A DNA stretch of 33,771 nt from Pseudoroseomonas ludipueritiae (GTDB taxonomy: Bacteria > Pseudomonadota > Alphaproteobacteria > Acetobacterales > Acetobacteraceae), in contig NZ_JACTUZ010000036.1 of the NCBI RefSeq assembly GCF_014490445.1, forward strand, positions 1-33,771, written 5' to 3'. Under the pieces are notes generated by a model. That model did not search any database. It saw only the letters and a program-made list of their open reading frames with translations, and was not told the origin of the DNA. How positions within the stretch are numbered: position 1 is the first letter of the stretch; the number at the start of each line of letters is the position of its first letter. A program made the position numbers and the translations under genes. Shown here in pieces: positions 8,993 through 27,014 of this stretch.

Positions 8993-9054
8993 AATCAACG
9001 GGGCACGAAACATGTATCAGTTATATGTTGCGTGTTTTCAGTCGCCTAACCGGC

Positions 9055-9069
9055 TGGCATGCTGCTTGC
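9055..9069 (+). promoter_or_regulatory. Sigma-54 (-24/-12) promoter of dctA
   Basis: TGGCATG-CTGC-TTGC fits the consensus TGGCACG-N4-TTGC with one mismatch and exact spacing between the GG and GC elements. The expected transcription start is near 9080, leaving a leader of about 90 bases before the ATG at 9170. It lies downstream of two DctD-like dyads and next to a gene for a DctD-type activator. A possible but poor IHF site is seen in the AT-rich stretch 9010-9035. Confidence 0.85.
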
Positions 9070-9156
9070 CAAAGGGGCGTTCATGGCCGCCAAACCGGGC
9101 AGTTCAGCCCCCGGCGCCAGTTTGGACAATATTGGCCCGCCGCGCCGGGCTGGACT

Positions 9157-9163
9157 GGAAGGA
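9157..9163 (+). promoter_or_regulatory. Ribosome site deciding the dctA start
   Basis: GGAAGGA at 9157-9163 is six bases before the ATG at 9170. The other in-frame ATGs at 9059 and 9083 fall on or next to the promoter, and the ATG at 9164 is too close to this site. Confidence 0.6.
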
Positions 9164-9169
9164 ATGCCG

Positions 9170-10501: not shown

Positions 10502-10508
10502 GTTAAGT

Positions 10509-11330
10509 TCAGCGACCCGGCGCGGCTTCCATGGCCGCGCCGGCCCGCCGCAGGGCGGGGTCGAAAGGATTGAGGCGGGCGCCGATGGCGTCCGCCTCTT
10601 TTATGAGCGCGGCCGCGACGGTGGCGCGGCGCTCCTCGCCCATCCGGTCCGTGGTGGTGCCGATGGAGAGCGCCGCCGCCGCCCGGCCATCCGCATCCAG
10701 TACCGGCACGCCCAGGCCCGCCATGCCTGGCAGGATGCCGAAGGCGGCGCAGTAGCCCTGCCGCCGCACGCTCGCCAGCTCCGCCCGCAGCCCGCCTTCG
10801 TCCAGGCCGCCGAATTCCTCGATGCGCGGCAGGTTGTGGCGGATCACCTCGTCCTGCTCCGCTGGCGGCATGAAGGCCAGGATGGCGCTGGAGCCCTGGC
10901 CGACGCCCAGCGGCACCCGGCCGCCGATATCGCCGGTAAAGGTCAGGATCGGCAGCGGCCCGGCGCTGCGGTCGATGCAGACGGCATCGAAGCCATTGCG
11001 CACCAGCAGGAACACCGTCTCCCCCAATGCCGCTGTCAGCCGGAGCAAGGCGGGACGGGCGATGTCGCGCAGCCCCACCGCCTGCCCGGAGCGGGCGGCG
11101 AGCAGGAAGAAGGAGAGGCCCAGGCGGTAGCGGCGCCGGGTGGCGTCGTGCTCCACGAAGCCCTCGGCCACCAGCAGGCGCAGGATGCGGTGCACGGTGG
11201 GGCGGGGCAGGGCCGCGGCATCCGCCAGTTCCGCCAGGCGCTGGCCTTGCGGGTCGCCAGAGCCGAGCAGGCGCAAAAGGCGCAGGGCGCGGGGCAGGCT
11301 GCCGGCTTGGTCGGAGACGGGTTCGATCAT
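10509..11330 (-). CDS. IclR-family transcriptional regulator
   Basis: The 273-residue protein has an N-terminal winged helix-turn-helix (about residues 12-75, with the recognition helix in the LPRPTVHRILRLL segment). A C-terminal effector-binding IclR domain follows (FLLVRNGFDAVCIDR, then the AAFGILPGMAGLGVPV and AALSIG segments). The ATG at 11330 gives the usual family length; an upstream in-frame start at 11417 would add 29 residues lying across the putative promoter. It is divergent from the hyuA-hyuB operon and two 16-bp repeats lie between them, so it very likely controls that operon and itself. IclR proteins can repress or activate and bind small carboxylates or amides; the effector is unknown. 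Confidence 0.92.
   Translation of the reverse strand: MIEPVSDQAGSLPRALRLLRLLGSGDPQGQRLAELADAAALPRPTVHRILRLLVAEGFVEHDATRRRYRLGLSFFLLAARSGQAVGLRDIARPALLRLTAALGETVFLLVRNGFDAVCIDRSAGPLPILTFTGDIGGRVPLGVGQGSSAILAFMPPAEQDEVIRHNLPRIEEFGGLDEGGLRAELASVRRQGYCAAFGILPGMAGLGVPVLDADGRAAAALSIGTTTDRMGEERRATVAAALIKEADAIGARLNPFDPALRRAGAAMEAAPGR
10517..10543. terminator. Hairpin in the iclR 3' end, after dctA
   Basis: A 10-bp perfect stem CCGGCGCGGC / GCCGCGCCGG with a 7-base loop lies 15 bases after the dctA stop, inside the last codons of the convergent iclR gene. It has no U-tract; it may end or stabilise the dctA message. Confidence 0.4.
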
Positions 11331-11332
11331 CG

Positions 11333-11348
11333 TGTTCCGCTTAGCGAA
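11333..11348. promoter_or_regulatory. Putative IclR operator, copy 1
   Basis: TGTTCCGCTTAGCGAA is the first of two tandem copies of TGTTCCG-N2-TAG-N-GAA. It contains an internal dyad (GTTC...GAAC with GCT-T-AGC inside). It lies just upstream of the iclR ATG, over its ribosome site. Confidence 0.5.
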
Positions 11349-11355
11349 CCACATC

Positions 11356-11371
11356 TGTTCCGAATAGTGAA
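11356..11371. promoter_or_regulatory. Putative IclR operator, copy 2
   Basis: TGTTCCGAATAGTGAA shares 13 of 16 bases with copy 1 and is offset from it by 23 bases. It overlaps the likely -10 region of the iclR promoter, as expected for autoregulation. Confidence 0.5.
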
Positions 11372-11393
11372 ATTTTGACGCTCCCGATGTCAA
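11364..11393 (-). promoter_or_regulatory. Probable iclR promoter
   Basis: On the minus strand a perfect TTGACA (-35, 11393-11388) is followed after 18 bases by CACTAT (11369-11364), a moderate -10. The -10 falls inside operator copy 2. No equally good promoter is seen for the divergent hyuA. Confidence 0.45.
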
Positions 11394-11471
11394 GGAGCGG
11401 AATTCTTCTTGCGGCATTCAGAATGAAGGGGTTGCATCGACCTGAGGGCATTCTGCGGCGAGGAGGCTTGC

Positions 11472-13544
11472 ATGGCGCGTTGGCGGGTAGGCGTGGATTC
11501 GGGCGGGACCTTCACCGATGTCTGCCTCTTCGACGAGGAGAATGGCCGCGTCGAAGTCTGGAAGGTCTCCTCCACCCCGGACGACCCCTCCCGCGGCATT
11601 GCCCAGGGCGTCGAGGAAGGCATGCGCCGCGTGGCCCCCGAGGCCGGTGACAAGCCCGCCGCGCCGGTCACCTATTTCGGCCATGGCACCACCGTCGCCA
11701 CCAATGCGCTGATCCAGCACCGGGGCGTGAAGACCGGGCTGGTGACCACGGACGGCTTCCGCGACCTGCTGGAGATCGGCCGCCAGAAGCGCCCGGACCT
11801 TTACGACATGCAGGCGGACAAGCCGCCCGTGCTGGTCTCCCGCGACCTGCGGCAGGAAGTGCCGGAGCGGGTGCGGCATGACGGCAGCATCGACCTGCCG
11901 CTGGACGAGACGCGGATGCGCGCCGCCGCCGTGGCGCTGCGCGAGGCGGGGGTGAAGGCGGTGGCCGTTTCCTTCCTCTATGGCTTCATCCGGCCGGAGC
12001 ACGAGGCGCGGGCGGTGGAGATCCTGCGCGAGGAGATGCCCGAAGCCTTCATCAGCGCCGGCCATGAGACCGCGCCCGAGTTCCGGGAATTCGAGCGGCT
12101 CTCCACCGTGGTGCTGAACGCCTACCTCGGCCCGGTGATGCGCAGCTACATCGAGAAGCTGACGCCGCGCCTGGAAAGCCTGGGCATGACGGCGGCGCCG
12201 CACCTGACGCAAAGCAATGGCGGCGTCATCAGCTTCGCGGCGGCGGCGGGGCTGCCGGTGCGGACGGTGCTCTCCGGCCCTTCCACCGGCGTGGTGGGCG
12301 CACAGGCTATCGGCAAGCTGGCGGGCTACGAGGACCTGATCACCTTCGACATGGGCGGCACCTCCACCGATGTGGCGCTGCTGCAAGGCGGCCAGTGCCG
12401 CCTGACCAGCGAGGCGGTGGTGCATGGCTACCCGATCAAGGCGCCGATGCTGGATATCCATACGGTGGGCGCCGGGGGCGGCTCCATCGCCTATGTTGAT
12501 GCGGGCGGGCTGCTGAAGGTGGGGCCGCGCTCCTGCGGCGCCTTCCCGGGCCCCGTTTGCTACGACCAGGGCAATACCGAGCCCGCCACCACCGATGCCA
12601 ATGTGGTGCTGCAAACGCTGAATCCGACGCATCTGCTGGGTGGGCGGATGGCCATCCGGCAGGATTTGTCCAGGGCCGCCATCCAGCGCGTGGCGGACCA
12701 GCTTGGCCTGGGGCTGATGGAAACGGCGCAGGGTATTCTCTCCGTCGTCACGGCCAACATGGCCCGCGCCATCCGCGTCATTTCCGTGCAGCGCGGCCAT
12801 GACCCGCGCGACTTCACGCTGATGGCCTTCGGCGGTGGCGGCCCGCTACATGCGGCGCGGCTGGCCAAGGAACTGGACATGAAGCGCGTGCTGGTGCCGC
12901 GCAATCCCGGCATCCTCTGCGCCATGGGCCTGCTGCTGACTGACCTGCGCGCCGATTTCGCCGCCACCAAGCTGCTGCCGCTGAAGCCTGCTTCGATCGG
13001 CGATGTGGCCGAGGGCTTCGCGACCCTGACGGCCCGCGCCGAGGAGTGGTTCGAGCATGAGGGGACCGCCCCCGCCAACCGCGTGCTCACCCGCACCGCC
13101 GACATGCGCTACAAGGGGCAGAATTACGAACTGGCCGTGACGCTGCCGGAAGGCCCGGTGACGCAGGCGACGCTGGAAGCCCTGGCCGCCGGCTTCGCCG
13201 AGTTGCACCGCCAGCGCTACGGCTTCATCGCCGAGGGCGAGCCGGTGCAGATCGTCACGCTGCGGCTGGAGGCCACCGGCCTGGTGCGGAAGGCCACCCT
13301 GACGCGCTACCCGGATGCCGGGCCCGATGCCAGCGGCGCCCGCATTGGGGAGCGCCCGGTCTGGTTCCCAGAGGCACAGGATTTCGTCGCGACCCCGATC
13401 TACAGCCGTGATGAGCTGAAGCCCGGCAACCGCTTCACCGGCCCCGCCATCGTCGAGCAGATGGACACCACCACCGTGGTGCCGCCGGGCATGACCGCGC
13501 GCGTCGATCCCTATCTCAACCTGATCCTGGAGGCCGCGGCATGA
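11472..13544 (+). CDS. hyuA: Hydantoinase/oxoprolinase family subunit A (first copy)
   Basis: The 690-residue protein begins with VGVDSGGTFTDV (residues 6-17), the phosphate-binding loop of the ATP-dependent HyuA/OxoA superfamily. It has GHGTTVATNAL (70-80) and a second ATPase loop DMGGTSTDV (from 293). With HyuB it forms ATP-hydrolysing amidases or carboxylases: N-methylhydantoinase, 5-oxoprolinase, caprolactamase, acetone carboxylase. An AGGAGG lies five bases before the ATG. It is the first gene of a ten-gene run and is divergent from iclR. Both ATPase loops are intact, so activity is likely. The substrate cannot be named; a cyclic amide is the most economical guess given the downstream amine dehydrogenase. 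Confidence 0.9.
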   Translation: MARWRVGVDSGGTFTDVCLFDEENGRVEVWKVSSTPDDPSRGIAQGVEEGMRRVAPEAGDKPAAPVTYFGHGTTVATNALIQHRGVKTGLVTTDGFRDLLEIGRQKRPDLYDMQADKPPVLVSRDLRQEVPERVRHDGSIDLPLDETRMRAAAVALREAGVKAVAVSFLYGFIRPEHEARAVEILREEMPEAFISAGHETAPEFREFERLSTVVLNAYLGPVMRSYIEKLTPRLESLGMTAAPHLTQSNGGVISFAAAAGLPVRTVLSGPSTGVVGAQAIGKLAGYEDLITFDMGGTSTDVALLQGGQCRLTSEAVVHGYPIKAPMLDIHTVGAGGGSIAYVDAGGLLKVGPRSCGAFPGPVCYDQGNTEPATTDANVVLQTLNPTHLLGGRMAIRQDLSRAAIQRVADQLGLGLMETAQGILSVVTANMARAIRVISVQRGHDPRDFTLMAFGGGGPLHAARLAKELDMKRVLVPRNPGILCAMGLLLTDLRADFAATKLLPLKPASIGDVAEGFATLTARAEEWFEHEGTAPANRVLTRTADMRYKGQNYELAVTLPEGPVTQATLEALAAGFAELHRQRYGFIAEGEPVQIVTLRLEATGLVRKATLTRYPDAGPDASGARIGERPVWFPEAQDFVATPIYSRDELKPGNRFTGPAIVEQMDTTTVVPPGMTARVDPYLNLILEAAA

Positions 13545-15193
13545 GCCACGCCATCGCCGAGGCCAAGCCCGCCGCGCTGGACCCCATCACCGTCGAGGTG
13601 ATCGGCGCCGCGCTCTCCTCCATCGTCGAGGAGACGGGGGAGGCGCTGATCCGCGCTTCCTATTCCACCAACATCAAGGAACGGCGGGACTGTTCCACCG
13701 CGCTGTTCAACGCGGCGGGGGAGACGCTCTGCCAGGCCGAGCATATCCCGATCCATCTCGGCTCCTTCATCGGCATCATCCCGCAGATCATGCGGAAGCA
13801 CCGGGTGGAGGATATGCGCCCGGGCGATGTCTTCGTCGGCAACGATGCCTATGAGGGCGGCGGCACCCACCTGCCGGACATCGTGCTGGCGGAGCCGATC
13901 TTTTTCGCGCACCGCATCGTCGCCTGGACGGTGAACCTGGCGCACCATTCGGACTTCGCGGACCGTGGCCACGCGCATATCTATCAGGAAGGGCTGCGCA
14001 TCCCGCCCGTGCGGCTCTACCGCGAGGGCGTGCTGCAGGAGGATGTGCAGAGCCTGATCCTGCTGAACTGCCAGGTGCCGCATGAGCGTCTGTCGGACCT
14101 GCGGGCGCAGATGGCGGCCAACCGCGTCGGCGTGCAGCGCTTCCAGGCGCTTTGCGCCAAGTATGGCGTCGAGACGGTGCTGGGGGCTGCGGCCGAGCTG
14201 CTGAACTATGCCGAGCGCAAGATGCGCGCCGGCATCGCCGCGCTGCCCGATGGCGCCTGGACCTTCAAGGATGTCTTCGACCCCATCGACATCCCGGATT
14301 CCATGCCCTTCGCCGTCAAGGTGACGATCCGGGGCGACAGCATGTCGCTGGATTTCGACGCGCCCGACCAGCGCCGCGCCGGCATCAACATGACCTACAC
14401 GGCGCTGCTGGCGACGGTCTATTACATCGTGAAATCCGTAGTGGACCCGACCATCCTGCCTAATGCCGGGCTGGCGCGGCCGCTGACCGTCACGGCGCGC
14501 AAGGGCAGCATCCTGAACTGCGAGCATCCGGCGGCGGTGAACGGGCGCCTCGCGGCCTGCCAGCGGGTGTCGGACCTCATCCTCGGCGCCATCTCCCAGG
14601 CGGCGCCGGAGCGGGTGACGGCCTGCTCCAACTCCATCTGCACCGTGGCCAGCTTCATCGGCCAGCGGAAGGAGGATGGCGCGCTCTGGGTCTATCTGGA
14701 GACCATGGGCGGCGGCAACGGCGCCCGCCACAACAAGGACGGGCTGGATGGCGTGCATGTGCACACCACCAATACCTCCAACCTGCCGGTCGAGGCGCTG
14801 GAGATCGAGTACCCGCTGACCCTGCTGCGTTACGAGCTGGTGCAGGATTCCGGCGGCACCGGCCGGTTCCGTGGCGGCATGGGCCTGCGCCGGGTGTATC
14901 GTGCGGATGAGGATTGCCTGGTGCGCGTCGATATCGGCCGGCTGCGCTCGCGTTCCTGGGGCCTGCAAGGTGGCGGTGCGGGCAGCAAAGGCGCGGTGGA
15001 ATGCGGCCCGGGCGTCACCTTCAACGGCAGCACCGCCGCGCTGAAGGCGGGGCAGTGGTTCGCCATCGTCAGCCCCGGCGCCGGCGCCTATGGCCCCCCG
15101 TCACAGCGCCCAGCCGAGGCGGTGGCGCGCGACGTGGCCGAGGGTGTGATCAGCGCCGCCCATGCAAAGGATGCCTACGGCTTCAAAGCCTGA
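13541..15193 (+). CDS. hyuB: Hydantoinase/oxoprolinase family subunit B (first copy)
   Basis: A 550-residue partner of the preceding HyuA, overlapping it by four bases (ATGA). It shows the HyuB metal-site signature GNDAYEGGGTHLPD (Asp102, His110, Asp113) followed by AHHSDFADRG (His135-His136, Asp138), and the C-terminal GGxGRFRGGMGLRR segment found throughout the family. HyuB proteins hold the hydrolytic or carboxylating active site, while HyuA supplies ATP-driven activation. Full length and intact. The pair is equally long but clearly different in sequence from the second HyuB at 23332, so it is an old paralogue and not a recent duplication. Confidence 0.9.
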   Translation: MSHAIAEAKPAALDPITVEVIGAALSSIVEETGEALIRASYSTNIKERRDCSTALFNAAGETLCQAEHIPIHLGSFIGIIPQIMRKHRVEDMRPGDVFVGNDAYEGGGTHLPDIVLAEPIFFAHRIVAWTVNLAHHSDFADRGHAHIYQEGLRIPPVRLYREGVLQEDVQSLILLNCQVPHERLSDLRAQMAANRVGVQRFQALCAKYGVETVLGAAAELLNYAERKMRAGIAALPDGAWTFKDVFDPIDIPDSMPFAVKVTIRGDSMSLDFDAPDQRRAGINMTYTALLATVYYIVKSVVDPTILPNAGLARPLTVTARKGSILNCEHPAAVNGRLAACQRVSDLILGAISQAAPERVTACSNSICTVASFIGQRKEDGALWVYLETMGGGNGARHNKDGLDGVHVHTTNTSNLPVEALEIEYPLTLLRYELVQDSGGTGRFRGGMGLRRVYRADEDCLVRVDIGRLRSRSWGLQGGGAGSKGAVECGPGVTFNGSTAALKAGQWFAIVSPGAGAYGPPSQRPAEAVARDVAEGVISAAHAKDAYGFKA

Positions 15194-15218
15194 ACCCTGA
15201 GCCCCCGAACCCTGAGCC
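15192..15218 (+). repeat. 12-bp tandem direct repeat
   Basis: GAACCCTGAGCC occurs at 15192-15203 and again at 15207-15218. The first copy overlaps the hyuB stop codon. It fills the short gap before the binding-protein gene, whose ribosome site AAGGAGA follows at once. It is probably a local duplication. Confidence 0.6.
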
Positions 15219-15233
15219 AAGGAGACCAAGCCC

Positions 15234-16754
15234 ATGCCTCCCGTGACTCTGTCCCGCCGCTCCATGCTCGCCGGTGCCGCGGCGCTGCCCTTCCTGCGTA
15301 TCCCGGGCGCGCGCGCGGCGGCGCCGGGGGTGCTGACCTTCGGCCTTTCCTCCTTCCCGCCCTCCATCCAGCCATGGGCCAATAGCGGCACGGCGGCGGC
15401 GACCATGAAGCTGCTGATGTATCGCGGCCTCACCTCCTATGCCGATGACGGTTCGTTGCGCGGGGAGTTGGCGGAAAGCTGGGCGCGGGACGGCGACAAA
15501 GCCTGGGTCTTCAAGATGCGGGACGCGAAGTTCCAGAACGGCGAGAAGGTCACCTCCGCCGATGTGAGATGGACCATCGAACAGGTCGCCGATGCCAAGT
15601 CCACCGCCTTCTTCCGCAACGAGATGCAGAAGGTGGAAGCGGTCGAGACACCGGACGACCGCACGGTGCGCATCGTCACCAAGGTGCCGGTGGTGACGCT
15701 TCCCAATATGATGGCCAGCTACCACTTGCCGATCATCTACCGCTCCTCCGACCGGCGGGAGCCGGTGGGGGCGGGGCCCTTCATCCTGAAGGGGCAGGAG
15801 CGTGGTACCTCCCTGGATTTCGAGGCCAATCCGAATTTCTACAAGCCTGGCCTGCCGAGGCTGAAGGGTATCCGCGTCGTCGCCTATCAGGATGAGAACC
15901 TGCGGGTCTCCGCCTTGCAGTCCGGCGACCTGGACCTGATCGAATACGTGCCCTGGCAGGCCATGGATGCCATCACCGCCAACCCGGCGCTGAGCCTGGA
16001 TGCGGTGGATGGCGCCTTCATGTTCCTGGTCTTCAACGGCGCCAAGGCGCCCTTCAACGACCCGCGCGCGCGCAAGGGCGTGGCGCATGCCATCCGGCGG
16101 GAGGATGTGGTGAAGGCGGCCTTCTTTGGCCGTGGCTCCGGCCTGTTTCAGTTGCCCATCGCGGAATCCAGCGCCTACTACAACCCGGAATACAAGAACG
16201 CCTGGAAGTACGACCCGGATCTGGCGAAGAAGCTGCTGACGGAATCCGGAGCGTTGAATTCCCCGGTGACCATGCTCTCTACGGCCCAGTACGGCATGCA
16301 CAAGGACACGGCCGAAGTGGTGCAGAGCCAGTTGGCCGCCATCGGCATGAAGGTGCAGCTCAACCTGCCGGATTGGGCGACACGCGTGGCCATCGGCAAC
16401 CGGGGCCAGTACGACTTCGCGATGATGGGCACGGCGGCGGATAGCAACGATCCCGATGGCATCGCCAACTTCATCGATGGCAGCCTTTCGCCTTCCTATG
16501 TGCGGTCCTACGGCCTGAAGACGGAGCGCATCACGGAACTGCTGGCCGCTGGCCGCGCCGAATTCGACGAGGCCAAGCGCCGCGCGATCTACAAGGAAAT
16601 GGAAGGCATCGCCATTGAGGAGGCGCCGATCGTCGGCCTCACCTGGCGGAGCCAGGGCTATGCGATGAAGAAGGGCGTCACCGGCTTCAAGAACCTGCCG
16701 GGCGCGCTGACCTTCTATTCCGGCCTGACCTTCGAGACCACCTCCCTTGCGTGA
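15234..16754 (+). CDS. ABC transporter substrate-binding protein, family 5 (oligopeptide/dipeptide type), Tat-exported
   Basis: A 506-residue periplasmic protein with a twin-arginine signal (SRRSMLAG, Arg8-Arg9, hydrophobic core to about 22, probable cleavage after ARA at 26-28). The mature part has the family 5 features LAESWARDGDKAWVFKMRDAKFQNGEKVTSAD (about 75-106, quoted here only as a region) and NDPRARKGVAHAI. Such proteins deliver peptides, opines, amino-acid derivatives or sugars to an ABC permease. No permease or ATPase gene is present in this window, so it must use a transporter encoded elsewhere. A strong ribosome site, AAGGAGA, lies upstream. Its place between hyuB and the SDR suggests that it captures the substrate of this pathway. 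Confidence 0.9.
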   Translation: MPPVTLSRRSMLAGAAALPFLRIPGARAAAPGVLTFGLSSFPPSIQPWANSGTAAATMKLLMYRGLTSYADDGSLRGELAESWARDGDKAWVFKMRDAKFQNGEKVTSADVRWTIEQVADAKSTAFFRNEMQKVEAVETPDDRTVRIVTKVPVVTLPNMMASYHLPIIYRSSDRREPVGAGPFILKGQERGTSLDFEANPNFYKPGLPRLKGIRVVAYQDENLRVSALQSGDLDLIEYVPWQAMDAITANPALSLDAVDGAFMFLVFNGAKAPFNDPRARKGVAHAIRREDVVKAAFFGRGSGLFQLPIAESSAYYNPEYKNAWKYDPDLAKKLLTESGALNSPVTMLSTAQYGMHKDTAEVVQSQLAAIGMKVQLNLPDWATRVAIGNRGQYDFAMMGTAADSNDPDGIANFIDGSLSPSYVRSYGLKTERITELLAAGRAEFDEAKRRAIYKEMEGIAIEEAPIVGLTWRSQGYAMKKGVTGFKNLPGALTFYSGLTFETTSLA

Positions 16755-17436
16755 CCTCAGCGGCAAGGTGGTGATGGTGTCCGGTGCCGCGCGCGGCATC
16801 GGGCGGGCGGTGGCGGAACGGCTGCTGGCGGCGGGCTGCCAGGTCAGCGCCGGGGTGCGGGATACCGCCCGTGCACCGGAGGGGACGGCGGGCTTCGCCT
16901 ACGACGCCAATCGGCAAGGCAGCGCCGCTGGCTGGGTGGAAGGCACAGTGGCCCGCTTCGGGCGCGTGGATGCGCTGGTGAATGCCGCCGGCATCAACCC
17001 GCGCGCCACGCTGCTGGAAGGGCCGGACGGCGCCTTCCAGGACCTCTGGACCGTCAACGCCATGGGGCCGATCCAGGTGATCCGCGCCGCCTGGCCGCAT
17101 CTGGTGGCGGGCGGGGAGGGGCGGGTGATCAACATCGCCTCGCTTTCCGGCAAGCGGGTGCGCAACGACAACCTGGGTTATGCGATGAGCAAGTTCGCCG
17201 TGATGGCGCTGACGCAGGAAGTGCGCCGGCTGGGCTGGGAGCATGGCATCCGCGCCACCGCGCTCTGCCCCGGCTTCGTGGATACGGACATGACGGCGCA
17301 TGTCACCAAATGGCCGCGCGAGCAGATGTCGCGCCCCGAGGATCTGGCGCTGCTGGCGGAAACGCTGCTGCGGCTGCCCAATACCGCCTCGGTGGCCGAG
17401 CTGCTGGTGAACTGCCGGCACGAGGACACTCTGTGA
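16747..17436 (+). CDS. Short-chain dehydrogenase/reductase
   Basis: A 229-residue classical SDR. It has the cofactor loop GAARGIG (residues 13-19), NAAG (79-82), catalytic Ser132, and Tyr145-x3-Lys149 (YAMSK). It is slightly short for the family (usually 240-260) because the C-terminal substrate lid is abbreviated. It starts with TTG at 16747, eight bases inside the end of the binding-protein gene, and ends with a GTGA overlap onto the ferredoxin-like gene, so translation is coupled on both sides. It should interconvert an alcohol and a carbonyl with NAD(P)H; the substrate is unknown but presumably a pathway intermediate. Confidence 0.88.
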   Translation: MRDLSGKVVMVSGAARGIGRAVAERLLAAGCQVSAGVRDTARAPEGTAGFAYDANRQGSAAGWVEGTVARFGRVDALVNAAGINPRATLLEGPDGAFQDLWTVNAMGPIQVIRAAWPHLVAGGEGRVINIASLSGKRVRNDNLGYAMSKFAVMALTQEVRRLGWEHGIRATALCPGFVDTDMTAHVTKWPREQMSRPEDLALLAETLLRLPNTASVAELLVNCRHEDTL

Positions 17437-17708
17437 GGCTGGCGCGCCTGCGGGATACCGACCGCCCGCCGCTGCATCTGGAGCTGGACGGGCGCGCCAT
17501 CGCCGCGATGGAAGGCGACACGCTGCTGACCGCCCTGCTGGCCGGTGGCGCCGGGCATCTGCGGGAAAGTGAATTCGGGGACGGTGGGCGGGCCGGCTTC
17601 TGCCTGATGGGGGCCTGCCAGGATTGTTGGGTTTCGGTGGAAGGGCTGGGCCGGGTGCGCGCCTGCGCCACCCTGGCCAGGGACGGAATGAAGGTGCGGC
17701 GCGGATGA
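17433..17708 (+). CDS. 2Fe-2S subunit of an FAD amine dehydrogenase (HcnA-like)
   Basis: A 91-residue protein with four cysteines in ferredoxin-like spacing: Cys57, Cys62, Cys65 and Cys78 (C-x4-C-x2-C-x12-C). This is the layout of HcnA, of opine oxidase small subunits and of the N-terminal part of heterotetrameric sarcosine oxidase alpha. The start is GTG at 17433, overlapping the SDR stop by four bases; a longer frame from 17310 lies antiparallel in logic to the SDR and is rejected. It should carry electrons from the flavin subunits that follow, toward quinone or another carrier. Confidence 0.85.
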   Translation: MRLARLRDTDRPPLHLELDGRAIAAMEGDTLLTALLAGGAGHLRESEFGDGGRAGFCLMGACQDCWVSVEGLGRVRACATLARDGMKVRRG

Positions 17709-19075
17709 AGGTCGCGGTGGTGGGCGCCGGCCCTGCCGGCGTGCGGGCGGTGGAGGCGCTTCTGGCTGCCGGCATCCGCCCGGTCTGGATCGACGAGGCG
17801 ATGGATGGCGGCGGCCGCATCTACCAGCGCCCGCCCGCCGGCATGCGGCGCGACGCCCGCACGCTCTATGGCTTCGAGGCCGCCCGTGCCACGGCGCTGC
17901 ACGCGGCGCTGGATGCCGCCAAAGCCAGGGCGGATTGGCGGCCGGAAACGCTGGTCTGGAATATCCATCCTGGCAGGCAGCAACTCCACACGCTCAGTGC
18001 CGGGCGGCAGGGCGTGGTGGAATACGACGCAGCCATTCTCTGCACCGGAGCAATGGACCGCGTGGTGCCGGTGAAGGGTTGGACCCTGCCGGGCGTGACC
18101 ACTATGGGCGGTGCGCAGATCGCGCTGAAGTCCCAGGGCTGCGGCATCGGGCGGCACGTGGCTTTTCTGGGCAGCGGGCCGCTGCTCTGGCTGGTGGCCT
18201 ACCAATATGCCAAGGCGGGAGCGCAGGTGGCGGCGGTGCTGGATACCACCCCTCTCGCCACCAAGGCGGGCGCCGCGCCGGGCATGCTGCGCGGGCCGGC
18301 GACCTTCGCCAAGGGCCTCTATTATGTCGGCTGGCTGCGCGCGCGTGGCGTATGCATCGCGGAAGGCGTGACGCCGCTGGCGATCGAGGGAGAGGGCAGC
18401 GTTTCCGGCATCCGCTGGCGCGATGCCAAAGGCGTGGAACACCATGCCGGCTGCGACGCCGTGGGCATCGGCTGGGGCCTGAAGCCGGAAGCGCAGCTTG
18501 CCGATCTCGCCGGTGTGCCCTTCGATTTCGACAGCTTGCAGCACAACTGGGTGCCGCGCCGCGATGCCGCCGGGCGCGCGCCTGTGAAGGGCATCTACCT
18601 CGCGGGCGACGGCAGCGGCATCGGCGGCGCCGAGGTGGCGGAGCTGGCTGGTGCCCGCGCCGCCTTGGCATTGTTGCAGGATGCCGGGCACAAGGCCGAG
18701 ACCACTGCCCTGGACCGCAAGCTGGAAAAGCTGGCCCGCTTCCGCGCGGCGCTCGAAAAGGCCTTTCCCTTTCCCGCGCACCTGGCCGCCGCCTTGCCGG
18801 ATGATGCCGTCTTCTGCCGTTGCGAGAACCTGACCGTTGGCGAGTTGCGCGCCACCACTGCCGGGCCGCAGATCCCGGCGCCGGAGGTGAACCGCGCCAA
18901 GGCCATCAGCCGCGCCGGCATGGGCCGTTGCCAGGGCCGCGTCTGCGGTGCCGCGGCGGCTGAGATTCTGGCCGCGTGCCTGGGCTGCGGCGTGGCGGAG
19001 GTCGGGCGGTTGCGTGGGCAGGCGCCGGTGAAGCCCATCCCCCTGACGCCCCCGCCGCTGGTGACGACGCCATGA
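17705..19075 (+). CDS. FAD/NAD(P)-binding and BFD-type Fe-S subunit of amine dehydrogenase (HcnB-like)
   Basis: A 456-residue flavoprotein. It has the dinucleotide-binding loop GAGPAG (7-12) and a second nucleotide loop LGSGPL near residue 157. At its C-terminus is a bacterioferredoxin-associated-ferredoxin [2Fe-2S] domain with Cys371, Cys373, Cys409 and Cys414 (CxC-x35-C-x4-C). This is the architecture of HcnB, octopine/nopaline oxidase subunit A and D-hydroxyproline dehydrogenase subunits. ATG at 17705 overlaps the previous stop (ATGA). The frame extends back to 17624, but that part overlies the ferredoxin gene. Confidence 0.88.
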   Translation: MKVAVVGAGPAGVRAVEALLAAGIRPVWIDEAMDGGGRIYQRPPAGMRRDARTLYGFEAARATALHAALDAAKARADWRPETLVWNIHPGRQQLHTLSAGRQGVVEYDAAILCTGAMDRVVPVKGWTLPGVTTMGGAQIALKSQGCGIGRHVAFLGSGPLLWLVAYQYAKAGAQVAAVLDTTPLATKAGAAPGMLRGPATFAKGLYYVGWLRARGVCIAEGVTPLAIEGEGSVSGIRWRDAKGVEHHAGCDAVGIGWGLKPEAQLADLAGVPFDFDSLQHNWVPRRDAAGRAPVKGIYLAGDGSGIGGAEVAELAGARAALALLQDAGHKAETTALDRKLEKLARFRAALEKAFPFPAHLAAALPDDAVFCRCENLTVGELRATTAGPQIPAPEVNRAKAISRAGMGRCQGRVCGAAAAEILAACLGCGVAEVGRLRGQAPVKPIPLTPPPLVTTP

Positions 19076-20205
19076 ATGACACCCGCTTCGATGTTCTGGT
19101 GGTGGGCGGCGGCGGCGCCGGCTGCTCGGCCGCGCTGCACCTGGCCAAGCGCGGCACCCGCGTGGCGCTGCTGGAGCGCGGGCTGGTGGGTGGGCAGGCT
19201 TCCGGCGTCAATTACGGCGGCGTGCGGCAGCAGGGGCGCAACCCGGCGGAGCTGCCCATCGCCCGCCGCTCCCGCGAGCTTTGGGGGCGGATGAAGGAAC
19301 TGGTGGGGACGGATGCGGAATTCACCGTCACCGGCCACCTGAAGCTGGCCCGCAACGATGCCGAGGAAGCCGACCTGACCGCCTATCTGGACGTGGCGAA
19401 GCAGCATGGGCTGCCGCTGCGGATGGTGGGGCGCAACGCCATCCATGTCGAATACCCCTGGCTGGGACCGCAGGTGGTGGCGGGGTCCTTTGCGCCGGAG
19501 GATGGCTCGGCCAATCCGCGCCTGATGGCACCGGCCCTGGCCCGCGCCGCGCGGGATGCCGGCACCACGGTGCTGGAGCGGACGGAGGTGCTGGACTACG
19601 CCCATGACGGCACGCTGTTCCGGCTGCGCACGGTGGATGGGCGCGAGTTCACCGCCCCAGTGCTGCTGAACATGGCCGGCTTCTGGGGCGGGCGCATTGC
19701 CGAGGCCTTCGGGGAGCCGGTTCCGGTGAAGCCGCTCAGCCCCAACATGATGGTGACGGAGCCGCTGGATTATTTCATCGAGCCCAACCTCGGCGTGGTG
19801 GGCGGCAATGTTTATCTGCGGCAGATCCCGCGCGGCAATGTCATCATCGGCGCGGGGCATGGGGAGAACGACCCCGGCCAGCCCGGGCAGGTGCCCTGGT
19901 CCCGCCCCTTGCCGGAAGTGACGATGGAAGGCGCCCGGCTGGCCATCGCGCTGGTGCCGGCGCTGGAGGGGGTGCAGATCATCCGCTCCTGGACCGGCAT
20001 CGACGGCAGCATGCCGGACAAGATCCCGGTCATCGGCCCCAGCAGCACCACGCCGGGGCTGTTCCATGCCTTCGGCTTCTCCGGCCACGGCTTCCAGCTT
20101 GGGCCGGCGATCGGCGCCATCATGACGGAGCTGGTGCTGGACGGGCGTACGGATATCCCGCTGGAGTCCTTCCGCATCACCCGCTTCGCGGAGGCCGCGG
20201 CATAG
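19072..20205 (+). CDS. FAD-dependent D-amino acid/amine dehydrogenase catalytic subunit (HcnC-like, DAO family)
   Basis: A 377-residue DAO-fold flavoprotein with VVGGGGAGCSAA (10-21) and the ASGVNYGGVRQQGR segment, which is characteristic of FAD oxidoreductases acting on proline-type, hydroxyproline, opine or N-alkyl amino acids. The C-terminal FGFSGHGFQLGPAIG flavin contact is intact. It starts by a four-base overlap with the preceding subunit, completing a three-part dehydrogenase. The complex oxidises a C-N bond to an imine. Candidate substrates are the amino acid released by HyuAB ring opening, an N-methyl amino acid or an opine. Glycine (cyanide synthesis) is possible for the architecture but is not supported by the neighbours. 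Confidence 0.88.
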   Translation: MNDTRFDVLVVGGGGAGCSAALHLAKRGTRVALLERGLVGGQASGVNYGGVRQQGRNPAELPIARRSRELWGRMKELVGTDAEFTVTGHLKLARNDAEEADLTAYLDVAKQHGLPLRMVGRNAIHVEYPWLGPQVVAGSFAPEDGSANPRLMAPALARAARDAGTTVLERTEVLDYAHDGTLFRLRTVDGREFTAPVLLNMAGFWGGRIAEAFGEPVPVKPLSPNMMVTEPLDYFIEPNLGVVGGNVYLRQIPRGNVIIGAGHGENDPGQPGQVPWSRPLPEVTMEGARLAIALVPALEGVQIIRSWTGIDGSMPDKIPVIGPSSTTPGLFHAFGFSGHGFQLGPAIGAIMTELVLDGRTDIPLESFRITRFAEAAA

Positions 20206-20222
20206 GCTATCCGGCGGGCGCC

Positions 20223-21218
20223 ATGTACCACGCGCCCTTCCTGGACCACCTGCACCGCCTGCTGCTCGCCGCCCTGCCGCGTTGGGGCCTGCCCGCGGGC
20301 ACGCACCTCTCGCTGCTCAATGTCTCCGAGAACGCCACCTTTCTGGCGGAGGGTCGTGCCGGGCGGCTGGTGCTGCGCGTTTATCGCCAGGGCTATCACC
20401 AGCCGGCGGAGATGGAATCCGAGCTGGCCTGGATCGCGGCGCTGCGGCAGGCGAGGGTGGTGGAAACGCCGGCGCCGGTAGCGGCCGCCGATGGCACACT
20501 GCTGCAGGCGCTGCCCGACGGTACCGGGACGCGCCATGCCGTCGCCTTCACGCATATGACGGGGGAGGAACCGGCGCAGGATCTTCCGCGCCGCTTCCGG
20601 CAATTGGGCGGCATCAGCGCGCGCCTCCATGCTCATGCGCGCGGCTGGGCACCGCCGCCCGGCTTCATCCGCAAACGCTGGGATGCCGATACCATGTTGG
20701 GTGCGGCGGGGCATTGGGGCGACTGGCGCGCCGGCATCGGGCTGGAAGCCGAAGGCGCGGCTCTGCTGGAACGTGTGGAAGCGGCGCTGCGCATCATCCT
20801 GGCGGGATACGGCGATACGCCGGACCGCTTCGGCCTGGTGCATGCCGACCTGCGCCTGACCAATCTGCTGGCCGATGGCGCGCGCCTCGGCGTCATCGAC
20901 TTCGACGATTGCGGCTTCTGCTGGCATCTTTACGACTTCGCCGCCGCCGTCAGCTTCATGGAGCATGAGCCGGTGGTGCCGGCGCTGATGCGGGCCTGGG
21001 TCGCCGGCTATCGGGAAGTGGCGCCGCTGGCGGAAGCCGATGTGGCGCTGCTGCCAGCCTTCGTCATGCTGCGGCGCATGTTGCTGACGGCCTGGCTCGC
21101 TTCCCATGCCGAGACGCCCACGGCCCAGGCCCTGGGCGCCGGCTATACCGCCGGCACGGTGGCGCTGGGGCGGGACTTCCTGGCGCGGCAGGCTGGCATG
21201 GGCCTCGCTTCCGGCTAA
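20223..21218 (+). CDS. Small-molecule phosphotransferase (APH/choline kinase-like family)
   Basis: A 331-residue protein kinase-like fold enzyme of the APH family, with the catalytic loop HADLRLTN (His207, Asp209, Asn214) and the metal-binding DFDD (Asp226-Asp229). The nucleotide lysine probably lies in the LRVY/RLVLRV strand near residue 57; in this family an arginine can replace it. Relatives phosphorylate hydroxyl groups of small amines (choline, ethanolamine, hydroxylysine, homoserine). It lies 17 bases after the dehydrogenase gene, in the same run as two HyuAB pairs, so it is more likely a pathway kinase than a drug-resistance enzyme. Confidence 0.82.
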   Translation: MYHAPFLDHLHRLLLAALPRWGLPAGTHLSLLNVSENATFLAEGRAGRLVLRVYRQGYHQPAEMESELAWIAALRQARVVETPAPVAAADGTLLQALPDGTGTRHAVAFTHMTGEEPAQDLPRRFRQLGGISARLHAHARGWAPPPGFIRKRWDADTMLGAAGHWGDWRAGIGLEAEGAALLERVEAALRIILAGYGDTPDRFGLVHADLRLTNLLADGARLGVIDFDDCGFCWHLYDFAAAVSFMEHEPVVPALMRAWVAGYREVAPLAEADVALLPAFVMLRRMLLTAWLASHAETPTAQALGAGYTAGTVALGRDFLARQAGMGLASG

Positions 21219-21250
21219 GCTCCTTCTGCCGGTGTCATGGAGCTTTCGCC

Positions 21251-23335
21251 TTGAACCCCACGCCTGTCCGCCTCGCCGCCGATATCGGCGGCACCTTCAC
21301 CGATGTTGTGCTGGAAGCCGGAGGGCGGCGGCGAACGCGCAAGGTGCTGACCACCCCGGCGGCACCGGAGGAAGGCGTGCTGGAAGGCGTCTCCCTGGTG
21401 CTGGAGGATGCGGGGCTGCATTTCTCCGACATCGATGTCTTCGTGCACGGCACCACGCTGGCCACGAATGCCATCATCGAGCGGCGCGGCGCCCGCACGG
21501 CGCTGGTGGCGACGCAGGGCTTCCGCGACGTGCTGGAGATCGGCACCGAGAGCCGTTACGACCAGTACGATCTGACGCTGGAAAAGCCGGTGCCTCTGGT
21601 GCCGCGCGCCCTGCGCTTCACAGTGCCGGAACGCGTGGATGCCGAGGGCCAGGTCCGCCTGCCGCTGGACGAGGCTGCCGTCGCCGCTCTGGCGCCGGAA
21701 TTCGAGAAGGCGGGCGTGCAGGCCGTGGCTTTCGCCTTCCTGCATGCCTATGCCAACCCGGCGCATGAGCAGCGCGCGGCGGCGGTGTTGAAGGCGCTGC
21801 TGCCGGGCCTTTCCATCACCATGGCGCATGAGGTCTGCCCGGAGATCCGGGAATACGAGCGCACCTCCACCGCCGTCGCCAATGCCTATGTGCAGCCGCT
21901 GATGGAAGGCTATCTCGGCCGCATGCGGGATGCGCTGCAGGCGCGGCAGTATCGCGGCGCCACCTATCTGGTGACCTCGGGCGGTGGGCTGACATCACTG
22001 GAGACGGCCCAGAAGTTTCCGGTGCGGCTGGTGGAATCCGGCCCGGCGGGCGGCGCCATCTTCGCGGCGCAGGTGGCGCTGCGGGCGAATGAGCAGAAGG
22101 TGCTGTCCTTCGACATGGGCGGCACCACGGCCAAGGTCTGCCTGATCGAGAAAGGCCAGCCCGCGACTTCCCGTTTCTTCGAGGTGGACCGCTCCGCCCG
22201 CTTCCTGAAAGGCTCCGGCCTGCCGCTGCGTATCCCCGTGATCGAGATGGTGGAGATCGGCGCGGGCGGCGGCTCCATCGCGCAGGTGGATGCCATGCAG
22301 CGCGTGACGGTGGGGCCGGAGAGCGCGTCCTCCGTGCCGGGCCCGGCCTGCTATGGGCTGGGCGGGGAACGGCCGGCGGTGACCGATGCCGACGTGGCCA
22401 TGGGGTTGATCGAGCCACAGGGCTTCGCGGGCGGCAGCATGACGTTGCGCGACGACCTTTCGCGCGCGGCGCTGGCCCGCGACATCGGCGCCAAGCTGGG
22501 GCTTTCCGCCGAGATGTCGGCTTATGCGGTCTATGAGATGGTCTGCGAGAACATGGCCAGCGCCGCCCGCGTGCATGCGGCGGAGCGTGGAGCCGTGATC
22601 GGCCAGCACACCATGATCGCCTTTGGCGGCGCCGCGCCGCTGCATGCGGCGCGGGTGGCGGAGAAGGTGGGGGTCAGCCGCGTGCTGGTGCCGCCCAATG
22701 CCGGCGTCGGCTCGGCGGTGGGCTTCCTGGCGGCGCCGGTGGCTTATGAAATTGTCCGTTCCCGCCACGCGCGGGTGGATGAGAGCTTCGATGGCGCCGG
22801 CGTCTCGGCGCTGTTCGCGGAGATGGCCACCGCCGCCCGCGCGTTGGTGGAGCCCGGCGCGCGCGGCGCGCCCTTGTTCGAGCGGCGGATGGCCTTCATG
22901 CGCTACGTCGGCCAGGGCCACGAGATCACGGTGCTGCTGCCCAACCGCGACCTGACAGCGGCGGATGTGCCGGAGCTGCGCCGGATCTTCGAGGCCGAAT
23001 ACGCCGCGCAGTTCGCCCGCATCATCCCGGCGGCGGCCATCGAGGTGCTGAACTGGTCCGTGCTGGTCTCCACCGAGGCGAAGCAGCCGGAAGCCATGGC
23101 GCCGGTACGTGCGGCTGAGGCGCCCAGCCCATCCGGCCTGCGCCGGATCTTCGATGGCCGCAGCGAGAAGCATGTCGAGGTGCCGGTCTACCGGCGGGAA
23201 GCCATGCCCCCCGGCGCGGTGGTGCCCGGCCCCGTGGTGATCGCGGAGGACGAAACCACCACCTATGTTTCCGCCAGCTTCGACGCCCATATCGACGGCG
23301 CCGGCTGCATCGTGATGGAAAGGAAGGCGGCATGA
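21251..23335 (+). CDS. hyuA: Hydantoinase/oxoprolinase family subunit A (second copy)
   Basis: A 694-residue HyuA with the N-terminal loop ADIGGTFTDVVLE (about 9-21), HGTTLATNAIIERRGART (about 75) and a second ATPase loop reading DMGGTTAKVCLIE in place of the DMGGTSTD of the first copy. This places it in a different HyuA subgroup. The start is TTG at 21251 with GGAG eight bases upstream, 32 bases after the kinase gene. Both ATP loops are intact. Having two dissimilar HyuA proteins in one operon suggests two different ATP-dependent amide or carbonyl steps. Confidence 0.88.
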   Translation: MNPTPVRLAADIGGTFTDVVLEAGGRRRTRKVLTTPAAPEEGVLEGVSLVLEDAGLHFSDIDVFVHGTTLATNAIIERRGARTALVATQGFRDVLEIGTESRYDQYDLTLEKPVPLVPRALRFTVPERVDAEGQVRLPLDEAAVAALAPEFEKAGVQAVAFAFLHAYANPAHEQRAAAVLKALLPGLSITMAHEVCPEIREYERTSTAVANAYVQPLMEGYLGRMRDALQARQYRGATYLVTSGGGLTSLETAQKFPVRLVESGPAGGAIFAAQVALRANEQKVLSFDMGGTTAKVCLIEKGQPATSRFFEVDRSARFLKGSGLPLRIPVIEMVEIGAGGGSIAQVDAMQRVTVGPESASSVPGPACYGLGGERPAVTDADVAMGLIEPQGFAGGSMTLRDDLSRAALARDIGAKLGLSAEMSAYAVYEMVCENMASAARVHAAERGAVIGQHTMIAFGGAAPLHAARVAEKVGVSRVLVPPNAGVGSAVGFLAAPVAYEIVRSRHARVDESFDGAGVSALFAEMATAARALVEPGARGAPLFERRMAFMRYVGQGHEITVLLPNRDLTAADVPELRRIFEAEYAAQFARIIPAAAIEVLNWSVLVSTEAKQPEAMAPVRAAEAPSPSGLRRIFDGRSEKHVEVPVYRREAMPPGAVVPGPVVIAEDETTTYVSASFDAHIDGAGCIVMERKAA

Positions 23336-24984
23336 GCACGCAACCCGGCCTGATCGACCTCCAGATCATGTGGAACCGCCTGATCGCCGTGGTGGGCGAG
23401 CAGGCGCAGGTGCTGATCCGCACCGCCTTCAGCCCTATCGTGCGGGAATGCGAGGATATCTCGGCCGGTGTCTTCGACCTGAAGGGGCGGATGCTGGCCC
23501 AGGCCGTCACCGGCACGCCCGGCCACATCAATTCCATGGCCGAGGCGGTGAAGCACTTCATCCGCCACTTCCCCATCGAGAGCATGCGCGAAGGCGACGC
23601 CTATATCACCAACGACCCGTGGATGGGCACGGGGCACCTGAATGACTTCGTCATCACCACGCCCGCCTTCCACAAGGGCAAGCTGGTGGGGCTGTTTTCC
23701 TGCACCAGCCACCTGATGGATATCGGCGGCCTCGGCAACGGCCCTGAAGCCAGCGATGTCTTCATGGAGGGGCTCTATATCCCCATGCTGAAGCTCATTG
23801 ACCAAGGGAAGGTCAATGAGACGCTGATGGCCATCATCCGCGCCAATACGCGGCTGCCGGTGGATACGGAAGGCGATACCTATTCCCTGGCCGCGTGCAA
23901 CGATGTTGGCGTGCGCGCCCTTTCGGCCATGATGGACGAATTCGGCATCGACACGCTGGAGCCGCTGGCGGAGCACATCATCGCCCGCTCCCGCGAGGCG
24001 GTGCTGGCGGAGATCGCGAAGCTGCCCAAGGGCACCTGGCGGTATTCGATGATGGTCGATGGCTATGACCACCCACTGACGCTGGAAGCGGCGCTGACCA
24101 TTTCCGACACCGGCATCCATGTCGATTTCACCGGCACCTCGGACGCGGTGAAGCGCGGCATCAACGTGCCTATCGCCTATACCACCGCCTATACCTGCTT
24201 CGGCCTGGGCTGCGTTGTGGCGGCGCATATCCCGAACAATGCGGGCTCCCTGGCGCCGCTGACCGTTTCGGCGCCGCCGGGCTGCATCCTGAACGCGCAG
24301 AAGCCGGCGCCGGTCTCCATCCGCCACATCATCGGGCAGATGCTGCCGGACATGGTCTTCGGCTGCCTGCGGCAGGCCATTCCGGACCGGGTGCCGGCGG
24401 AAGGCACCTCCTGCATCTGGAACATCATCGTGCGCGGCGTGCGGCCGAAGATGGAAGGGCCGAACCACGGCTATGCCCTGGCCATCACCACCAATGGCGG
24501 CACAGGGGCGCGGCCGCGGCAGGACGGACTCTCGGCCACCGCTTATCCCTCCGGCGTGCATGGAACGCCGGTGGAGATCGCTGAAATCCAGTCGCCGCTG
24601 ATGTTCTGGCGCAAGGAATTCCGCCCGGATTCCGGCGGGGCGGGGCGGCAGCGCGGCGGCCTCGGCCAGATCATGGAAATCGAGAACCGTGACGCTGCGC
24701 CCTTCGAGCTGCTGGCGGCCTTCGACCGCATCCAATACCCGCCGCGTGGGCGGGATGGCGGTGGGGATGGCGCTGCGGGTTATGTTGGCCTGTCCTCGGG
24801 GCAGGTGCTGCGCGGCAAGGGCCTGCAGGTGATTCCGCCGGGTGAGCGCCTGGTGGTGTTCACTCCCGGCGGCGGCGGGCTCGGCGACCCGGCGGCGCGC
24901 GACCCTGCCAAGGTGGCCGCCGACCTCGGCAATGGCCTGATCTCGGCCGAGACGGCGGCACGGCATGGCGTTGCGGCAGAGTGA
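23332..24984 (+). CDS. hyuB: Hydantoinase/oxoprolinase family subunit B (second copy)
   Basis: A 550-residue HyuB that overlaps the second hyuA by four bases. The metal-site segment reads TNDPWMGTGHLND (Asp95, His102, Asp105), followed by SHLMDIGG (His127, Asp130), against GNDAYEGGGTHLPD and AHHSDFADRG in the first copy. The C-terminal GGAGRQRGGLGQ segment is present. This is the last gene of the run; a stem-loop follows after about 30 bases. It should form the active-site subunit with its own HyuA. Confidence 0.88.
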   Translation: MSTQPGLIDLQIMWNRLIAVVGEQAQVLIRTAFSPIVRECEDISAGVFDLKGRMLAQAVTGTPGHINSMAEAVKHFIRHFPIESMREGDAYITNDPWMGTGHLNDFVITTPAFHKGKLVGLFSCTSHLMDIGGLGNGPEASDVFMEGLYIPMLKLIDQGKVNETLMAIIRANTRLPVDTEGDTYSLAACNDVGVRALSAMMDEFGIDTLEPLAEHIIARSREAVLAEIAKLPKGTWRYSMMVDGYDHPLTLEAALTISDTGIHVDFTGTSDAVKRGINVPIAYTTAYTCFGLGCVVAAHIPNNAGSLAPLTVSAPPGCILNAQKPAPVSIRHIIGQMLPDMVFGCLRQAIPDRVPAEGTSCIWNIIVRGVRPKMEGPNHGYALAITTNGGTGARPRQDGLSATAYPSGVHGTPVEIAEIQSPLMFWRKEFRPDSGGAGRQRGGLGQIMEIENRDAAPFELLAAFDRIQYPPRGRDGGGDGAAGYVGLSSGQVLRGKGLQVIPPGERLVVFTPGGGGLGDPAARDPAKVAADLGNGLISAETAARHGVAAE

Positions 24985-25272: not shown

Positions 25273-25659
25273 ATGAAGAAGATCCTGATGCTCGGCGCTG
25301 GTCTGGCTCTGATGGGCGCCACCAGCGTCGCCATGGCCCAGGCGCCGCAGCCACCCGCTGCCGCGCCGCAGACCACGGAAGCCGCGCCTCCGCCGCCTCC
25401 GGGTGGTCCTGGCATGCATCGCCATGGCATGCGCGGCCCGGGTGGCCCCGGCATGATGCACGGCCCTGGTCCGCACCGCTTCGGCCCGCCGCCGCCGCCG
25501 TCCAAGGCCGCGTCCTTCAACTTCCAGAACGGCGACATGCGTATCCGCATTCGCTGCGCCGAGGATGAGCCGATGCAGAACTGCGTGAACGCCGCTTCCG
25601 CGCTGATCGACAAGGTCGGCGGCATGACGTCGGCGCCGGCCACGACCCCGGCGCGCTGA
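25273..25659 (+). CDS. Small exported His/Met/Pro-rich protein
   Basis: A 128-residue protein with a clear Sec signal peptide (MKKILMLGAGLALMGATSVAMA, cleavage after AMA near residue 22; shown here as residues 1-22). A low-complexity zone (about 23-75) rich in Pro, Gly, His and Met follows, with repeats such as GPGM and MHRHGM. A compact end contains MRIRIRCAEDEPMQNCVNAA with two cysteines (near 95 and 104) likely to form a disulfide. AAGGA precedes the ATG at a good distance. I do not recognise the family. The His/Met-rich stretch could bind copper or nickel, but this is only composition-based. It lies between an operon end and a convergent amidase. Confidence 0.7.
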   Translation: MKKILMLGAGLALMGATSVAMAQAPQPPAAAPQTTEAAPPPPPGGPGMHRHGMRGPGGPGMMHGPGPHRFGPPPPPSKAASFNFQNGDMRIRIRCAEDEPMQNCVNAASALIDKVGGMTSAPATTPAR

Positions 25660-26973: not shown

Positions 26974-27014
26974 CCGCCGATGCTGGACAAAGCTGGCGCG
27001 GTGGTCCAGCCGGG

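Follow-up and report, generated by a model that had tools for sequence, protein, structure and literature searches.

The contig NZ_JACTUZ010000036.1 of Pseudoroseomonas ludipueritiae (assembly GCF_014490445.1; 33,771 nucleotides, hereafter the window) carries ten consecutive genes that run on the forward strand from position 11472 to 24984, divergently from a gene for an IclR-family regulator (Table 1). Their predicted products are two dissimilar pairs of ATP-dependent lactam or hydantoin hydrolase subunits (HyuA1-HyuB1 and HyuA2-HyuB2; 37% identity between the HyuA and 31% between the HyuB proteins), a solute-binding protein (SBP), a short-chain dehydrogenase/reductase (SDR), a three-part flavin/iron-sulphur dehydrogenase (the Fer2, FADred and DAO subunits) and an APH-fold kinase. 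Six of the nine gene junctions overlap, five by 4 bases and one by 8; the gapped ones are HyuB1-SBP (40 bases), DAO-kinase (17) and kinase-HyuA2 (32). The original prediction, made from the letters and open reading frames (ORFs) of the window, had described just such a single-strand operon, with a divergent IclR gene, overlaps of 4-8 bases at most junctions and two unlike HyuAB pairs. The ORFs and Pfam bear this layout out, the latter being consistent with the family naming of all ten genes, although the BFD match in FADred is sub-threshold. The whole genome holds five Pfam Hydantoinase_A matches, two of them inside this operon. The start of the regulator probably lies at 11330, because alignments of its protein with five relatives begin at residue 27-36.

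Table 1. The operon and its divergent regulator: positions in the window, and the basis of each assignment.
Gene product	Position	Strand	Basis and remarks
IclR-family regulator	10509..11417	-	Divergent; Pfam HTH_IclR, IclR_C; likely true start 11330
HyuA1, predicted ATP-binding subunit of ATP-dependent lactam/hydantoin hydrolase, aga clade	11472..13544	+	Pfam Hydantoinase_A, tree, residues
HyuB1, predicted metal-site subunit	13541..15193	+	Pfam Hydantoinase_B; CapB ligand match
AgaA-like family-5 solute-binding protein	15234..16754	+	Pfam SBP_bac_5; best solved relative 6hlx; no permease genes alongside
SDR oxidoreductase	16747..17436	+	Pfam adh_short; 44-49% to SDR of five plasmid loci
Gamma-like [2Fe-2S] subunit (Fer2)	17433..17708	+	Pfam Fer2_4; Cys57-X4-Cys62-X2-Cys65-X12-Cys78
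Alpha-like FAD subunit (FADred)	17705..19075	+	Pfam Pyr_redox_2; C-terminal BFD-type cysteines, Cys371-X-Cys373-X35-Cys409-X4-Cys414
Beta-like catalytic DAO-fold subunit	19072..20205	+	Pfam DAO; best solved relative by sequence 1y56_B
APH-fold kinase, predicted amino-alcohol kinase kind	20223..21218	+	Pfam APH; best solved relative 6ef6
HyuA2, second ATP-binding subunit	21251..23335	+	Pfam Hydantoinase_A; tree (clade other than that of HyuA1)
HyuB2, second metal-site subunit	23332..24984	+	Pfam Hydantoinase_B; same four metal ligands invariant

The first seven genes, HyuA1 to DAO, are closely related to the aga (agropinic acid) set of Ti plasmids. Agropinic acid is the lactam of mannopinic acid, and on the Ti plasmid it is opened by HyuAB-like proteins; a 1999 description of the aga region reportedly covers HyuA- and HyuB-like proteins and the name AgaE. 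The pair beside AgaA on the octopine-type Ti plasmid NC_002377.1 is 67.5% (HyuA1) and 63.6% (HyuB1) identical to that of the window. Taking this locus together with that of pAoF64/95, the likeness comprises HyuA (67-68%), HyuB (64-65%), an AgaA-type binding protein (38-40%), the SDR (47% on pAoF64/95) and a flavin oxidoreductase beside HyuAB. In a tree of 20 hand-picked HyuA proteins, HyuA1 groups with the Ti, pAoF64/95 and other plasmid copies (support 100/99) and HyuA2 falls in a separate clade, with a warning from the program of long branches among the outlying rows. The best solved relative of the binding protein is AgaA itself (6hlx; E 2.6e-104, the next 2.5e-38), and the 102 AgaA residues compared agree without exception with the binding protein of the Ti HyuAB cluster, whereas the second binding protein of that stretch differs. 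Agropinic acid import is the subject of a paper that stands as a reference entry in PMC6683767, and a figure legend of PMC6341043 mentions that the mannopine genes of pAoF64/95 adjoin a member of an operon for agropinic acid uptake.

HyuA1 matches 921 records of the plasmid collection, 52 of them at 60-80% identity, and six of these 52 were read: the octopine-type Ti plasmid, pAoF64/95, one plasmid of Terrarubrum, two of Martelella and one of Sagittula. All six have a flavin oxidoreductase in the same cluster as HyuAB, and an SDR gene adjoins it in all except the Ti plasmid. The Terrarubrum HyuAB set lies near SIS-domain, PfkB and RidA genes; SIS and PfkB genes are found in Amadori-compound catabolism. 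The window differs from the two aga loci in having a three-subunit Fe-S/flavin enzyme in place of the single flavoprotein, no permease genes, an IclR regulator, and a kinase and second HyuAB pair as additions. With an aga-clade HyuAB pair and an AgaA-type binding protein, genes 1-7 can be classed, by sequence, as a variant form of an opine-lactam catabolic operon already known. What is left of the earlier view of the locus as an undescribed system concerns, at most, the contribution of the last three genes.

In this variant the oxidising enzyme is of another type. The best solved relative of the DAO subunit by sequence is 1y56_B. In Neoroseomonas and in two congeners (G012 and G006) the gene order is HyuA1-HyuB1-SBP-DppB-DppCD-DppF-SDR-Fer2-FADred-DAO, and on the Sagittula plasmid it is HyuA-HyuB-SBP-DppB-DppCD-DppF-SDR-single FAD oxidoreductase-creatininase. 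Behind the same seven genes there is thus a three-part enzyme in G012 and G006 and a single chain in Sagittula, and comparison of the sequences indicates that one dehydrogenase type has been swapped for another at the same operon position. Exchange of subunits is known within this kind of dehydrogenase, according to PMC4575208. The same source gives Cys-X4-Cys-X2-Cys-X11-12-Cys as the gamma motif of flavin opine/D-hydroxyproline dehydrogenases, and the Fer2 protein carries it at Cys57, 62, 65 and 78. The beta motifs Arg-X-Trp (FMN; R305-S-W307) and Gly-X-Gly-X2-Gly (G12, G14, G17) are found in the DAO protein and are invariant in 32 aligned sequences (the window and 31 loci, of 61 listed). The ADP motifs of flavin opine dehydrogenase are likewise present, so that the three-part enzyme has most, not all, of the motifs of that enzyme. 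It shares with the flavin opine/D-hydroxyproline dehydrogenases three tandem genes, the gamma cysteines, the ADP motifs and Arg-X-Trp in beta, and with Odh of B. thailandensis, as presented in PMC4575208, the gene order gamma-alpha-beta. It differs from them in the spacing of the alpha cysteines and in its link to HyuAB and SDR genes.

Both HyuAB pairs retain the catalytic residues of a characterised lactamase. The structure 6yra is presumably CapAB, its chain lengths of 696 and 581 fitting PMC8453981. Six residues were mutated in this caprolactamase of Pseudomonas jessenii: D11 and D295 of CapA, and D41, H99, D102 and H124 of CapB (PMC8453981). In HyuA they align with D9 and D293, in HyuB with the metal ligands D50, H110, D113 and H135, and all six are invariant in 14 HyuA and 14 HyuB sequences, both window pairs included. 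Because the catalytic residues of caprolactamase are kept, both pairs are expected to be active. The position of Lys40, which PMC8453981 also names, does not agree with the numbering of the alignment. The pairs match CapAB in these residues, but their scores are far lower than those of equivalogs: neither reaches any equivalog cut-off of NCBIfam, that for CapA and CapB being 1000 bits (A subunits 610 and 480, B subunits 266 and 211). By inspection, the adenosine motif GxxPGP reads GAFPGP in HyuA1 and SSVPGP in HyuA2, where a serine departs from it.

All ten genes occur in identical order in seven of the 17 genomes of the genus that were covered, that is, in six relatives and the window's own genome. 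One of the seven copies has an extra ORF of 296 amino acids between DAO and the kinase, and one of the seven genomes is only 71% complete. The ten-gene order is beyond chance, because it is kept in the six relatives as well as here, and in both pairwise comparisons made the ten genes show purifying selection (ratio of non-synonymous to synonymous substitution rates, dN/dS, 0.03-0.24). A scan of genome contigs by DAO alignment gave 74 loci, 63 of them with a DAO subunit of at least 50% identity. The loci were cut 10 kb to either side, and of the 63 only 52 reach full length, the other 11 being shorter, so neighbours are undercounted. DAO is accompanied by Fer2 and FADred at 61 loci, by SDR (at least 50%) at 44, by the binding protein (at least 55%) at 25, by HyuA1 (at least 60%) at 24 and by HyuB1 (at least 60%) at 25, in several arrangements. 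DppB (at least 50%) occurs in 19 loci, nine of which also have an FGase-like or acid-sugar-dehydratase-like gene. Genes 1-7 are a recurrent module. The kinase and HyuA2, on the other hand, stand beside DAO at only four of the 63 loci, all in the window's genus, other loci of which are without them.

The congeners vary around this module. G003 and G013 are without permease genes and carry dehydratase-like (a remnant in G013) and pyrroline-2-carboxylate-reductase-like genes; their HyuAB2 (86%) lies away from the module with TRAP-type genes; in G013, where both are on one contig, the distance is about 57 kb. In G011 the operon decays: HyuA1 to SDR are present, Fer2 and FADred were undetected and DAO is a remnant (locus L254, G011:C581, 7900-18964). 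Genomes G005, G009, G010, G014 and G016 gave no DAO or HyuA1 match at the chosen thresholds. Gene names given by eye, without a search, such as DppF or, for loci L219 and L220, TRAP small and large permease, are unproved. Because of the arrangements in the congeners and in Neoroseomonas, the window's clade looks like a derived form that has lost the permease genes and gained kinase-HyuA2-HyuB2. The gene-order comparison that the original prediction had proposed thus gives a divided answer: the ten genes travel together in the clade of seven genomes, whereas the kinase and HyuAB2 lie elsewhere in other relatives. As fixed partners of genes 1-7 they fail the prediction's own test, since their orthologues lie with other partners.

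The best solved relative of the kinase is 6ef6 (E 1.6e-77), which we take to be the (S)-1-amino-2-propanol kinase of the aminoacetone microcompartment. A paper on that kinase and microcompartment is listed by title among the references of PMC8007038. The kinases are alike, but the window operon is without microcompartment and phospho-lyase genes. Residues H207, D209, N214 and D226 are invariant in eight kinase sequences. Nine distant kinase loci were fetched, out of 32 matches listed besides the window's; a class-III aminotransferase gene adjoins the kinase at six (two of these enzymes being just 24-26% like the query) and at three there is none. The same kinase-aminotransferase pair is found on pAtC58, near polyamine-type transporter genes. 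By Pfam, no phospho-lyase of the class-III aminotransferase type is among the ten operon genes. An aminotransferase of the own genome (G000:C1:155707-157005), 56% like one beside a distant kinase, was considered as a phospho-lyase partner and dropped: it overlaps an APH gene of its own and occurs at 82% identity or more in 13 of 17 genomes irrespective of the operon (six of seven genomes with it, seven of ten without), which shows no clear association. As a separate observation, locus L235 (G519:C3, about 7800-16300) combines a kinase homologue (44%) with a class-III aminotransferase, a CoA-type aldehyde dehydrogenase, an SDR, and shell and vertex proteins, and appears from these genes to be an aminoacetone-type microcompartment locus in an alphaproteobacterium.

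Relatives of HyuAB2 keep varied company. They lie with TRAP-type genes in two congeners (L219, L220), before a 2-hydroxyacid-dehydrogenase-like gene at L224, and with amino-acid transporter, M20 hydrolase and kynureninase genes on a Marinibacterium plasmid (L261). At this last locus (5700-21042) another dissimilar HyuAB pair and a DadA-like dehydrogenase lie opposite, and RidA is also present. At L222 (G251:C1, 8100-17100) a single ORF separates a HyuAB2-type pair from nearby genes for PxpABC 5-oxoprolinase and biotin carboxylase. The best plasmid matches of both HyuA1 (71%) and HyuA2 (73%) are on the Terrarubrum plasmid, 28 kb apart. The combination of kinase and HyuAB2 was not repeated in any context read outside the clade.

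We consider it probable that the operon is an opine-lactam module, genes 1-7, with add-ons, and from the homologies above we infer a substrate, an order of steps, an electron acceptor, a permease partner and roles for the added genes. The AgaA-like protein would capture an N-substituted 5-oxoproline, such as agropinic acid or a similar sugar-amino-acid lactam, for a permease encoded elsewhere. HyuAB1 would open the lactam with ATP to give an opine-like N-substituted amino acid, whose secondary amine the three-part dehydrogenase would oxidise to an amino acid and a carbonyl compound, passing electrons to the respiratory chain; a hydroxyl or carbonyl group of the substituent may be the target of the SDR. 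Two additions stand behind the dehydrogenase, a kinase of predicted amino-alcohol type and HyuAB2 as a second, predicted ATP-dependent ring-opening enzyme; they might widen the substrate range, or they might process an amino alcohol that is released and another cyclic amide. The cyclic-amide pathway first proposed for the locus is thus well supported for genes 1-7, while a single pathway for all ten is only partly borne out.

Several observations weigh against this explanation. The operon has no single-chain FAD oxidoreductase of the AgaE type, and its DAO subunit is just 26-31% like it. The alpha motif given in PMC4575208, Cys-X-Cys-X15-20-Cys-X4-Cys, is not found in FADred, where the long spacing is X35 (Cys371, 373, 409, 414). 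The binding protein is about 40% identical to AgaA, which is too low for fixing its ligand. No HyuAB was detected at 35 of the 63 DAO loci (27 of the 52 at full length), so the substrate of DAO need not derive from a lactam. Substrates probably vary between loci, because relatives add differing enzymes: acid-sugar-dehydratase-like at seven of the 63 loci, FGase-like amidohydrolase at seven and pyrroline-2-carboxylate reductase at two. Finally, Dpp-type permease and ATPase genes, present at the corresponding point in congeners G012, G006 and G011, are absent from the operon. The own genome has a complete paralogous set elsewhere (L249; G000:C1, 1485-7625), with genes for an SBP (55%), DppB (60%), DppCD (61%) and DppF and, after them, a gene of the creatininase family; on the Sagittula plasmid the HyuAB set is followed by a relative of that gene (48%). 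The permease of the paralogous set could serve the orphan binding protein.

How far the last three genes belong with the first seven is a point on which the readings divide. A single transcript could serve two unrelated functions, with genes 1-7 as the opine-lactam module and the kinase and HyuAB2 genes as a block inserted recently and acting on something else; this is a possible reading that we nevertheless doubt. It shares the view of genes 1-7 taken in the explanation by module and add-ons and differs on the last three, so the confidences given to the two overlap and do not sum to one. It would account for the HyuAB2 genes found apart from the module, next to TRAP genes in L219 and L220 and in other company in more distant genomes, for the aminotransferase adjoining the kinase at six of nine distant loci and on pAtC58, and for the gapped, non-overlapping DAO-kinase (17 bases) and kinase-HyuA2 (32 bases) junctions. 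It sits poorly with a ten-gene order kept in all seven clade genomes despite divergence of the kinase to about 72% identity, and with purifying selection on all ten genes in the two pairs compared. Still more doubtful is the opposite extreme, one pathway for a plant or soil lactam linked to a sugar or amino alcohol, with two successive ATP-driven openings by dissimilar HyuAB pairs joined by the Fe-S/flavin dehydrogenase and the kinase.

The remaining alternatives concern the substrate. An N-hydroxyalkyl lactam might be opened by HyuAB1, its amino alcohol freed by the dehydrogenase and phosphorylated by the kinase, and the route finished by an unlinked phospho-lyase-like aminotransferase. Kinase homologues do often have aminotransferases of this kind near them, in one case together with microcompartment shell genes, and the own genome encodes such an enzyme (G000:C1:155707-157005); however, that enzyme has its own overlapping APH gene and no clear association with the operon, HyuAB2 is left unexplained, and we regard the route as unlikely. 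Degradation of N-methylhydantoin, creatinine or N-methylpyrrolidone, as suggested by the original prediction, appears very unlikely. Among solved structures, the N-methylhydantoinase 7hk5 comes closest to both HyuA1 and HyuA2, and creatininase-family genes follow the paralogous transporter of the own genome and, as a 48% relative, the Sagittula set. However, the Ti opine pair is a much better match to HyuA1, at 67% and 963 bits (blastp), than N-methylhydantoinase is, at 543 bits (phmmer); with 610 of the 1000 bits required, HyuA1 stays under the equivalog cut-off for CapA, and Pfam finds no gene of the carbamoylsarcosine-amidase type among the ten. The least probable is hydroxyproline- or proline-type catabolism through an enzyme like D-hydroxyproline dehydrogenase: the subunit architecture is the same and two relatives add a pyrroline-2-carboxylate reductase, but an epimerase and a deaminase are not among the ten genes by Pfam, and the AgaA-like binding protein and HyuAB1 would be left unexplained.

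No title or abstract opening among the literature matches listed describes this operon, and nothing was found that combines HyuAB, a kinase, sarcosine oxidase and N-methylpyrrolidone. The explanation by module and add-ons would connect the opine-lactam chemistry of crown-gall plasmids with an operon that is found in Acetobacteraceae and has relatives in Hyphomicrobiales, and in which a different type of oxidising enzyme holds the same operon position. If it is true, N-substituted 5-oxoprolines, that is, lactamised conjugates of sugars and amino acids, would count among the ordinary nutrients of soil or plants; a single pathway of all ten genes would in turn mean that Acetobacteraceae have an opine-like catabolism independent of a Ti plasmid.

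The operon is flanked by genes for an SDF-family symporter, an amidase and an SBF-like transporter (window 9059-10501 and 25699-28010), each found in five of the six congener stretches read; these may be part of the operon's function or conserved backbone. Between the operon and the amidase gene, a small proline/glycine-rich protein, presumably secreted, is encoded at window 25273-25659, and by eye it is also present in L024 and L028.

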